Assembly (NCBI RefSeq): GCF_023824315.1
Contig: NZ_CP098732.1
Location: 2,852,001-2,916,000, forward strand
DNA length: 64,000 nucleotides
Origin: Acinetobacter tibetensis
Lineage (GTDB): Bacteria > Pseudomonadota > Gammaproteobacteria > Pseudomonadales > Moraxellaceae
Reading direction: 5' to 3'
Numbering within the stretch: the first letter of the stretch is position 1; each line of letters begins with the position of its first letter. A program made the position numbers and the translations under genes. The notes under the pieces were generated by a model. That model did not search any database, was not told the DNA's origin, and worked only from the letters and a program-made list of their open reading frames with translations. Positions 48,985 to 51,602 of this stretch are shown piece by piece.

Positions 48985-49078
48985 TCAACTGTATCGGGGA
49001 GAAAGTATGATTTCATCCTCGATATTTTGATTGATACATTGGCTTGAACGGCACAACAGGACAAAAAGGATAAACTCA

Positions 49079-50185
49079 ATGAAGGTGATGCAGCTTCTTC
49101 CTGAACTGAATAGCGGTGGTGTTGAACGTGGCACACTCGAAATTGCCAAAGCGCTGATTAGTCAGGGGCATGAGTCATTGGTGGTTTCCAATGGTGGTCG
49201 TATGGTGGCGCAACTCGAAGCCGAAGGCTCTACCCATTTAACCTTGCCCATTCACAAGAAATCATTGTCCAGTCTGTGGCAAATTCGTCCATTACGTCAA
49301 CTTATTCAGCAGCATCGTCCAGACATTGTGCATGTCCGCTCACGCGTTCCTGCATGGTTGACTCATTTTGCCTTAAAAGGGATTCCTGCAACTGATCGCC
49401 CGCACTTGATAAGTACCGTACATGGTTTCTATTCGATTAATCGTTATAGTGCAATTATGACGCAAGCGGAAAAAGTCATTGCGGTTTCGGACAGTGTGGT
49501 GCAGTACATCACCGAACATTATAAAAATTGCCCTCCGCAAGATATCGTGCGTATTTACCGTGGTATAGACCCCAAAGCATTTCCACATGGCTATCAACCG
49601 TCAGTACAGTGGATTCAACACACCTTAAAAGACTATCCACAACTCGAACATAAGTTCCTCTTGTGCTTACCAGGTCGAATCACGCGTCTGAAAGGGCATG
49701 AAACCTTAATTGAATTAGTACAGCAACTACATACGCAATTCCCCTACCTGCATGCCATTGTGGTTGGCGGAGCTGATCCGAAAAAAGCCGCTTATTTGGA
49801 TGAACTACAACGCAACATTCAAAGCAAAGGCTTAGAACATCAGATTACCTTCGTCGGTCACCGCTCTGATATTCGTGAATGGCTCGCCTACAGTGATGTG
49901 GTCTTGTCTTTATCAAATCAGGCAGAAACCTTTGGACGTACCGCCTTAGAAGCCTTGTCCGTGGGTACACCTGTGATTGGCTGGAAAAGAGGTGGGGTTG
50001 CTGAAATTTTATCTTCAGTTTATCCGCAAGGACTCATCCCTGTTGATGATCAAGCTAAACTTATTCGTGTCATCCAACATCATATTGAACAGCCTCAACA
50101 CGTGGCTCCTGTCACGCAATTTAGCTTGCAAGACATGTGTGATCAGACTTTAGCACTTTATCAACGTATATTGGAGTCGTCATAA
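49079..50185 (+). CDS. GT4-family glycosyltransferase
   Basis: Probable lipopolysaccharide/lipooligosaccharide-type glycosyltransferase of 368 residues with two Rossmann domains. The N-terminal domain begins MQLLPELNSGGVERGTLEIA, and the C-terminal domain has the E-x7-E motif region AETFGRTALEALSVGTPVIG and LPGRITRLKGHETLIELV. AAAAAGGATAAACTCA before the ATG at 49079 is preferred over the frame opening at 49031. The upstream lpxL suggests a role in lipooligosaccharide core assembly; the sugar donor is unknown. Confidence 0.88.
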   Translation: MKVMQLLPELNSGGVERGTLEIAKALISQGHESLVVSNGGRMVAQLEAEGSTHLTLPIHKKSLSSLWQIRPLRQLIQQHRPDIVHVRSRVPAWLTHFALKGIPATDRPHLISTVHGFYSINRYSAIMTQAEKVIAVSDSVVQYITEHYKNCPPQDIVRIYRGIDPKAFPHGYQPSVQWIQHTLKDYPQLEHKFLLCLPGRITRLKGHETLIELVQQLHTQFPYLHAIVVGGADPKKAAYLDELQRNIQSKGLEHQITFVGHRSDIREWLAYSDVVLSLSNQAETFGRTALEALSVGTPVIGWKRGGVAEILSSVYPQGLIPVDDQAKLIRVIQHHIEQPQHVAPVTQFSLQDMCDQTLALYQRILESS

Positions 50186-50210
50186 TTTTTAAATAAATTT
50201 CGGGTATCTT

Positions 50211-50388
50211 AAAACACATAACCCGAGTTCTGCTTCCTGCAAAACTCGGGCATATGAGGTTGTGCTTTCAATCATAATTCTTGTTTTAGTGTTTGGTCGT
50301 CCTAACCAGCCATCATTTCCGTGATGATTTTCCTTCAGCGTCGTCTTCCTTAGTGGGATGTTCCGTTCCCTGTTCCGTGTGCTGATGA
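50211..50388 (-). ncRNA. Candidate CsrA/RsmA-sequestering sRNA (RsmX/Y/Z type)
   Basis: On the minus strand, about 175 nt with eight GGA motifs, all within AnGGA or AGGA. Four are in hairpin loops: GGGA-ACGGAACA-TCCC (50355-50370), CATCA-CGGAAA-TGATG (50311-50326), TGGT-TAGGACG-ACCA (50294-50308), and the loop AGGAA of a 12-bp terminal hairpin (50222-50250) that is followed by TTATGTGTTTT. TCAGC (50381-50385) can pair with GCTGA (50335-50339) to close the 5' half. GGA in hairpin loops is the CsrA-binding signature. No reading frame of note. The 5' end is inferred from a TATTCT -10 at 50393-50398; a GacA-type site lies further upstream. Confidence 0.8.
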
Positions 50389-50442
50389 AATAAGAATAAA
50401 AGAATTCTTATCGTTCGACCATTCGTCAGAGACCGAAACCTT

Positions 50443-50460
50443 TGTAAGCAATTTCCTACA
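50443..50460 (-). promoter_or_regulatory. GacA upstream activating sequence
   Basis: On the minus strand TGTAGG-AAATTG-CTTACA, one mismatch from the consensus TGTAAG-N6-CTTACA bound by GacA upstream of rsm genes. Its centre is about 64 bp before the inferred start of the sRNA and just beyond the stop of the EEP gene. Confidence 0.75.
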
Positions 50461-50480
50461 CAATTTCTCATGCAATTTGT

Positions 50481-51602
50481 TTACTGCTTCTCGTTTTTAT
50501 AATCCTGTGCAATTTCATCCGTTACTATTTTTTCTTCTCGCTCCGCTTTTTCAATCCCTTCTTGTATGGCAATCTGAGCTTCTTGCTCATCTGCATCCGT
50601 TTGCTCCAATTCCTCTTGCTGTTGCTCAAATAGACGTCCCGTTTGTAATTTGACATAGATAGGAAAGTGATCTGAACCGATATGCGGTAAACGCTGCATT
50701 TGAATGAGAGCAAAATCAGTACTGTGAAACACATGGTCGAGAGACCAGCGTAAAAAGGGATAATCGGCATGAAAAGTATTCACATAATGCCGCCCAACTC
50801 GCGGGTCGAGTAAGCCACTGATCCGTTGGAATAGACGCGTCGTTCGTGACCAAGCCACATCATTCAAATCCCCCATGACAATACAGCTTTGATCCAGCTC
50901 TTTGATTTGATCACCGATAATCAACAATTCAGCATCTCTTAACGTTGAATCCTTGGCTTCAGTCGGACTAGGCGGTTTCGGATGTAGACAGTACAACTGC
51001 ACAGGCTGCCCTGAAAGCAGCAGCACAGTAGTATGAATGGAAGGAATTTCATCACTTAAAATAAATTTCACTTCTGTATCGATGAGTTTCAAGCGACTAT
51101 ACAAATGCATGCCATACAGGTTATCTAAGGGAATCGGGACACAATAAGGATAATCCGCCTCAAGCACCTGTAATGCCTGTTGCCAACACTGATCTGTTTC
51201 TAAGGTCAAAACCAGATCGGGTTTCAATTGAGTAATTTGTGCAATTAATAAGTGATATTGTGTATTGGGTGTGAGTACATTCGAAACCAATAATGAAATC
51301 TGCCGCTCGGGCTGCAATTGCTCGTGAGAAACAGTCTGAACCTGTTTTTTCCACACGAAGGTATAAGGTAAAACCATTTTTAACTGATATGCCAAGGCTG
51401 CGATTAACGCGACGAAAATCAATTCACGTTGTAAATCCCAAGGATTAGGCCAAAAGATCAGTAAAATAAAGGCCAGAAGCCCAAGTGCTAAAATTTGTAG
51501 TCGTGGAAAATCGGCTCCGCGAATCCACCATTCATCACGCGGAATCAATGACCAAAACGTCAGAATCACCACAACAGCCGCCAAGATTTCCACCCAAATC
51601 AT
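50481..51602 (-). CDS. Endonuclease/exonuclease/phosphatase (EEP) family membrane protein
   Basis: A 373-residue protein: two to three N-terminal helices (residues 3-20, 35-50 and 60-75), then an EEP-fold domain with the active-site-like segments LLVSNVLTPN, LTLETD, CIVMGDLNDVAWS and IGSDHFPIYVKL (the last His is catalytic in the fold), and a Glu/Gln-rich C-terminal tail. The catalytic domain would lie in the periplasm. Substrate (nucleic acid or lipid headgroup) unknown. Located directly upstream of the sRNA region on the same strand. Confidence 0.85.
   Translation of the reverse strand: MIWVEILAAVVVILTFWSLIPRDEWWIRGADFPRLQILALGLLAFILLIFWPNPWDLQRELIFVALIAALAYQLKMVLPYTFVWKKQVQTVSHEQLQPERQISLLVSNVLTPNTQYHLLIAQITQLKPDLVLTLETDQCWQQALQVLEADYPYCVPIPLDNLYGMHLYSRLKLIDTEVKFILSDEIPSIHTTVLLLSGQPVQLYCLHPKPPSPTEAKDSTLRDAELLIIGDQIKELDQSCIVMGDLNDVAWSRTTRLFQRISGLLDPRVGRHYVNTFHADYPFLRWSLDHVFHSTDFALIQMQRLPHIGSDHFPIYVKLQTGRLFEQQQEELEQTDADEQEAQIAIQEGIEKAEREEKIVTDEIAQDYKNEKQ

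Follow-up and report, generated by a model that had tools for sequence, protein, structure and literature searches.

A conserved small RNA gene of the Csr/Rsm type behind a GacA-type box in Acinetobacter

Described systems of this kind include the CsrA-titrating small RNAs (sRNAs) of Pseudomonas and the enterobacteria. The rsmY gene of SS101, for example, has the upstream GacA-type box TGTAAGCATTCTCTTACA (PMC4353343). In Acinetobacter, two Csr/Rsm-type sRNA loci have been predicted in ADP1 (PMC5568370, Table 2), and that paper refers to a prediction made earlier for ADP1 (Kulkarni et al. 2006). RsmX, RsmY and RsmZ of A. baumannii are bracketed in Table 1 of PMC7366521, where brackets denote genome inspection only. 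GacSA is reported to control 674 genes in A. baumannii (PMC5295007), and csrA is reported to be essential for this species on rich media (PMC12802169). The RNAs that stand between GacSA and CsrA in Acinetobacter are predictions only in the literature examined, and there was no experimentally tested Csr/Rsm RNA of the genus among the literature matches listed, which are mostly titles and leave subscription papers largely outside.

A separate record comes from A. baumannii AB5075. Weiss et al. 2016 listed ABUWs074/Art68 as a novel transcript, which is a minus-strand RNA of 173 nt detected by RNA-seq and as a Northern band of the expected size (PMC5320573). Art68, Art70 and Art71 are all Northern-confirmed in A. 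baumannii with no function assigned. The terms CsrA, Csr and GacA are absent from the main text of PMC5320573, and ABUWs074, ABUWs077, ABUWs083 and ABUWs061 were named in no other paper among the full texts searched.

Here we describe a locus in an Acinetobacter genome of 3.39 Mb. The DNA examined, called the window below, is the 64-kb stretch C1:2852001-2916000. The original prediction presented the locus as a new-looking Csr/Rsm-type RNA that was not described for the genus. Both points are largely wrong in view of the RNA-seq and Northern record of its A. baumannii counterpart, ABUWs074/Art68 (PMC5320573), and of the earlier Csr/Rsm-type predictions (PMC5568370, PMC7366521). The locus is a real, conserved Csr/Rsm-type sRNA gene whose transcript is on record and whose circuit was predicted earlier for the genus. 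What is new here, and was found nowhere in the literature examined, is the proposed link of Art68 to the Gac-Csr circuit, the size of the RNA set and the promoter that its members have in common.

The RNA gene, its promoter and its identity

The features of the locus, and of related loci in the same genome, are collected in Table 1. The flanking genes had been called a glycosyltransferase and an EEP-family gene, and their domains (PF13439/PF00534 and PF03372) confirm this naming. In each of 13 loci from named records, the RNA region comes immediately after the PF03372 gene and has its orientation. These 13, all from records named Acinetobacter, are the loci in which a relative of the neighbouring gene is encoded.

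Table 1. Features of the RNA locus in the window (plain positions) and of related loci elsewhere in the genome (C1 positions)
Feature	Position	Strand	Remark
Predicted CsrA-titrating-type small RNA, counterpart of A. baumannii ABUWs074/Art68	50211..50388	-	both ends estimated, within a few nt
GacA-type box TGTAGG-N6-CTTACA	50443..50460	-	sequence TGTAGGAAATTGCTTACA
Promoter linker ATTnnGG ... C..aT, between box and -10	50419..50439	-	conserved in long and short RNA families
-10 element TATTCT	50393..50398	-	TA...T conserved in 93 regions; register common to both families
Helix 1, encloses helix 2	50335..50385 (50381-50385 with 50335-50339)	-	3/5 pairs with two-sided changes; 99.0% of cells paired
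Helix 2, ACGGA loop	50356..50369 (50367-50369 with 50356-50358)	-	1/3 pairs with two-sided changes; 98.3% of cells paired
Helix 3, ACGGA loop	50311..50326 (50323-50326 with 50311-50314)	-	1/4 pairs with two-sided changes; 99.4% of cells paired
Predicted hairpin 4, AGGAC loop	50294..50308	-	MFE structure of window RNA
AAAGCACAACCUCAU block	50254..50268	-	unpaired in consensus structure; between GGA hairpins and terminal hairpin
Terminal hairpin, terminator-like, GGA in loop	50221..50251	-	8/13 pairs with two-sided changes
PF03372 gene, exo/endonuclease/phosphatase family	50481-51602	-	upstream of RNA gene
Family 4 glycosyltransferase gene (PF13439/PF00534)	49031-50185	+	convergent to RNA gene
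Short RNA copy	C1 53041-53177	-	short-family model
Short RNA copy	C1 107316-107450	+	short-family model
Short RNA copy	C1 2008514-2008647	+	short-family model
Short RNA copy	C1 2664587-2664717	+	short-family model
Short RNA copy	C1 330020-330147	+	short-family model
Short RNA copy	C1 23038-23168	-	short-family model
Short RNA copy	C1 2923751-2923888	-	short-family model
Short RNA copy	C1 2714992-2715122	-	short-family model
Short RNA copy	C1 3345779-3345907	+	short-family model
Box-driven Art71-type region	G000:C1:3003811-3004049 (L188 512-750)	-	box 3004032-3004049
Second box, directly downstream of Art71-type gene	G000:C1:3003736-3003753		in L188

All eight GGA motifs that had been claimed for the minus strand of 50211-50388 were located (50376, 50369, 50364, 50349, 50333, 50320, 50302 and 50237). 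Counting them was rejected as stand-alone evidence because 9.8% of 5000 dinucleotide shuffles (mean 5.6) contained at least eight GGAs; the figure for mononucleotide shuffles was 1.0%. Eight GGAs in 178 nt also occur at 1584-1772 on the plus strand of the window and at 50436-50680 on the minus strand, the latter mostly coding. The minimum free energy (MFE) of the RNA was -44.5 kcal/mol (z -2.77), a value that one of 200 shuffles equalled or undercut. The claim that four GGAs sit in loops of separate hairpins was about right; over the orthologues six of the eight are mostly unpaired, and the one at 50369 lies in a stem. The terminal stem with its AGGAA loop is present as described, and the loop reads AGGAU in the consensus. 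This hairpin has 13 pairs and the tail TATGTGTTTT, and it was the one terminator-like hairpin found in 50150-50520, with 0.2 expected. Because the U-tract is interrupted, it would make a modest terminator.

The 18-bp near-palindrome predicted upstream of the RNA is also present and is the only exact match to TGTRRG-N6-CTTACA within the window. No sigma-70 type -35/-10 pair was found on the minus strand by a consensus scan, which fits the expectation for an activator-dependent promoter. Counting boxes across the genome was rejected as evidence in its own right since the reversed pattern is equally common or commoner; boxes with up to one mismatch were not enriched genome-wide (27 + 26, versus 35 + 36 for the reversed-pattern control). 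One exact box, at 678978 (L048), was discarded as a candidate because it lies inside a 480-residue open frame and has no GGA-rich RNA.

The published Northern probe for ABUWs074 is complementary to a genus orthologue of the window RNA (L103/L225, one genome) at 25 of 25 positions. Six further orthologues in the set compared differ from the probe target at three positions each. By this probe match to orthologues, rather than to AB5075 DNA, we identify the window RNA as the counterpart of ABUWs074/Art68. Other identities were considered. AbsR28 and Aar are entries separate from ABUWs074 in Table 1 of PMC5320573. ACIAD0018/0019 could not be linked with this locus, and position is a weak argument against it: the window RNA gene is found 2902 kb into a contig of 3382 kb whose start is near dnaA, the predicted locus at 25 kb in ADP1.

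A comparison with models of the Csr/Rsm type had been proposed as a check, and the RNA matches none of those in Rfam (CsrB RF00018, RsmY RF00195 and others). Rfam gave no match at gathering score anywhere in the window. At the locus itself, six matches were obtained at E values up to 10, none to a Csr/Rsm family and none near its gathering score; the best was SNORD73 (E 0.33).

Conservation and covariation across Acinetobacter

A covariance model found the long RNA in 164 of 175 Acinetobacter genomes, and BLASTN alone found it in 151 of 175. When the search was extended to the whole family, 176 of 348 genomes matched, 12 of them in other genera. Four of these, all of one genus, had E values from 3e-12 to 3e-11; the other eight were at 5e-6 or weaker and may be chance matches. 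The alignment used below contained 97 loci: 90 were drawn from the 151 genomes with a match and seven from named records, with some species represented more than once. These loci gave 93 distinct regions with the window included, and 78 after removal of near-duplicates.

The promoter is conserved with the RNA. Compared with TGTANG-N6-CNTACA, the box had no mismatch in 81 of the 93 aligned regions, one in 11 and two in a single region, so that a box with up to one mismatch is present in 92 of 93 regions, the window included.

An isolated 26th pair was dropped before counting, which left the consensus structure with 25 pairs that form four helices. Over the 78 sequences 99.1% of cells were paired, and 13 of the 25 pairs had changed on both sides, versus 4.5 in shuffles. 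None of the five observed covariation values was reached in any of 500 shuffles (0/500). Control structures slid along the alignment had 32-43% of cells paired and 1-3 pairs with two-sided changes, a comparison in which the consensus structure has an advantage as it was derived from the same 78 sequences. The alignment across the genus that had been proposed as a check on the stems thus shows covariation in them.

Loss of the GGA loops in related species had been named as grounds for giving up the idea. Six of the eight GGAs are retained in 78 of 78 orthologues; by comparison, 7 of 170 other trinucleotides are universal (Fisher p about 1e-6, a rough value since trinucleotides overlap). The universal six had mean unpaired probabilities of 0.68-1.00 with a background of 0.48, the lowest value being that of the GGA in hairpin 4, which is among those kept throughout. 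The two that are not universal, present in 67 and 62 of the 78 orthologues, had values of 0.22 and 0.35. The count per orthologue varied from 6 to 10, and the mode was 8 (42/78). Conservation of precisely the exposed GGAs is the pattern expected for a CsrA ligand. That several of them are kept also fits the report that a single GGA is insufficient for sequestration (PMC2375449). Conservation and covariation together raise the locus above chance.

The GGAs are not the only conserved part of the RNA. All 15 positions of the AAAGCACAACCUCAU block are at least 90% conserved in the 78 orthologues (6 are invariant and 9 at least 90%), and the block is nearly as conserved as the GGAs. In the MFE structure of the window RNA the tail is base-paired to the first 8 nt of the block, a pairing that is not conserved in the consensus. 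CsrA binding does not explain the block, and a role in base pairing or processing is possible. Among the top 8 matches from a very partial search of a few own-genome loci, the only complement of at least 12 nt to AAAGCACAACCUCAU was the gene itself.

A second, short RNA family and an Art71/Art70-type locus

A second family, of shorter RNAs, came to light through other GacA-type boxes in this genome. A model built from 40 non-redundant copies, out of 43 found in the loci examined, identified nine strong copies in this genome at E values below 1e-7 (model span 128-138 nt). There were also four weak matches (2.5e-3 to 9e-3), one of which overlaps the 3' part of the long RNA and two of which are antisense to strong copies. 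The nine copies bear on the original prediction, which spoke of the window RNA as the Acinetobacter member of the circuit; the same genome holds nine more RNAs of a second type. By BLASTN, the short family gave one to nine matches in each of 163 of the 175 genus genomes. Covariation was seen in this family too, with 6 of 23 pairs changed on both sides and 0 of 500 shuffles as high, and 27 of the 40 copies carry five GGAs.

For each of the ten RNAs, one long and nine short, the best box within 85 nt upstream departs from TGTANG-N6-CNTACA at no more than one position. The distance from box to model start is 49-52 nt in every case, and 49-51 nt for the nine short copies. We compared the promoter profiles of the two families downstream of the box using 55 long-family and 32 short-family non-redundant promoters. 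The mean profile similarity was 0.167 with the promoters in register (offset 0), and none of 24 other offsets gave more than 0.053. The distance from linker to box is equal in the two families. These data show that box, linker and -10 element stand in the same register in long and short RNAs.

The short family bears a weak resemblance to RsmY. One copy (L051) matched RsmY RF00195 over the full model with 27.2 bits (E 0.0017), where the gathering score is 57. The Rfam scan of this type of RNA returned 12 matches, none at gathering score, and unrelated families scored as many bits or more, such as STnc430 at 34.5 bits (E 0.016). Group 3 of PMC5320573 comprises four transcripts of 128-147 nt, and by copy number, length and rough relative position the short family is probably this group.

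Two further boxes lie together at about 3003.7-3004.05 kb. The region driven by the first, of the Art71 type, was found in 171 of 175 genus genomes. In 19 non-redundant sequences from the 30 best-matching loci the box is exact, there are 3-6 GGAs, and the 3' half is very conserved and includes AAAGAGGAAACUUACAGCC. In two other genomes (L224 and L223) the Art71-type region differs from the ABUWs077/Art71 probe target at a single position. Behind it, in both, comes a second box (at 658 and 765, respectively), followed by a stretch with GGA that fits the ABUWs076/Art70 probe apart from two mismatches. Neither the ABUWs077 nor the ABUWs076 probe has a match within six ungapped mismatches in the own genome, and for this reason the Art71 label there relies on the BLASTN match and the Art70 label on position and the second box. 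The Art71/Art70-type RNAs, with their fewer GGAs, may act otherwise. An RsmY match was also seen in L188 at 249-346 on the minus strand (E 0.023, 18.9 bits, below gathering).

Proposed mechanism, alternatives and comparison with known systems

The genome encodes candidates for both protein partners. There is one CsrA gene, above the Pfam and NCBIfam cut-offs. The GacA-type response regulator (L074) has UvrY/SirA/GacA as its best NCBIfam model at 270.8 bits, marginally short of the formal cut-off (280); the next-best family reached 164 bits, and the protein has Response_reg and GerE domains. A GacA orthologue was found in 174 of 175 genus genomes at E values up to 1e-60. The one genome in which none was found at this threshold (G169) keeps the long RNA, and the absence could be an assembly gap. 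Because GacA is near-universal and 11 of 175 genomes have no match to the RNA, co-occurrence is uninformative and gives no support to a link between GacA and the RNA.

Comparison of sequences gives good support to the original reading of the locus, a Csr/Rsm-type RNA with a GacA-type box ahead of it: the GGAs are conserved and exposed, the hairpins covary, the box and -10 element are conserved, and the genome encodes CsrA and GacA. The part of this reading that concerns function, namely CsrA binding and activation by GacA, is drawn by analogy from Pseudomonas and enterobacterial systems (PMC7366521, PMC2375449, PMC4353343). On this analogy, phosphorylated GacA would bind the box and activate a promoter that has no recognisable -35 hexamer. 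The RNA would then accumulate and capture CsrA dimers via its GGA loops, and this capture would release the mRNAs to which CsrA is bound. The long RNA would act beside nine short RNAs with the same promoter architecture. In our judgement the locus is very probably an independent gene whose product, an RNA of about 175 nt, titrates CsrA as a 'sponge' and is the counterpart of Art68/ABUWs074.

It is unlikely, yet the most plausible of the alternatives, that the locus encodes a GacA-controlled base-pairing sRNA in which AAAGCACAACCUCAU does the work and the GGA loops play a lesser role; an RNA with both functions is a version of this idea. The ACCUC within the block could pair with Shine-Dalgarno sequences, its 15 positions are each at least 90% conserved in the 78 orthologues, and there is a precedent in RgsA, which is GacA-controlled (an effect that is probably indirect), contains a single GGA and does not relieve RsmA-type repression (PMC2375449). 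However, the six GGAs are more conserved still and lie in covarying or exposed loops, and the very partial scan of the own genome gave no target among the matches listed.

We consider it very improbable that the RNA is simply the 3' untranslated region or terminator of the upstream PF03372 gene. Its place behind that gene on the same strand in 13/13 loci is what such a region would show, but the RNA has its own box and -10 element, conserved in 93 regions, the same promoter design precedes unlinked RNAs, and the A. baumannii counterpart ran at its expected size on a Northern blot (PMC5320573). The idea that box and GGA richness arose by chance in an A/G-rich intergenic region draws on the 9.8% of dinucleotide shuffles that equal the GGA count and on the lack of box enrichment in the genome; it is in effect refuted by conservation, covariation and the common promoter register, and we give it almost no credence.

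Taken as a CsrA sponge, the window RNA would belong to one of the largest known sets of its kind. We think it likely that this set consists of the long Art68 type and nine short RNAs with one promoter design, together with the two-box Art71/Art70-type locus, whose products may titrate or base-pair, and that Art68, Art70 and Art71 form one regulon. Art68 as the likely long sponge, with the short RNAs and the Art70/Art71 types, would give a concrete, genus-wide set of genes. The copy number would make Acinetobacter a test case for the multiplication of sponge RNAs, with ten sponge-type RNAs here compared with nine in Azotobacter vinelandii and seven in P. syringae DC3000 (PMC7366521).

Among known RNAs the nearest is Art68 of A. 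baumannii AB5075, also on the minus strand and 173 nt long, whose probe complements the genus orthologue at 25/25 positions. The RsmA-regulating sRNAs predicted in ADP1 (PMC5568370) would belong to the same circuit and are predictions only; the two loci in Table 2 of that paper measure 119 and 139 nt by their coordinates and are nearer to the short family. RsmX, RsmY and RsmZ of Pseudomonas resemble the window RNA in having a GacA-type upstream box, several unpaired GGA/ANGGA motifs (PMC2375449) and several RNAs per genome. By contrast with these Rsm sRNAs, the window RNA is longer, contains a conserved GGA-free block and has no Rfam match, and the short Acinetobacter family is nearer to them than the long RNA is. 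CsrB and CsrC of E. coli have the sponge logic in common and are under the control of BarA-UvrY; they carry 18 and 11 CsrA sites, respectively (PMC7366521), whereas the window RNA has eight GGAs, six of them universal.
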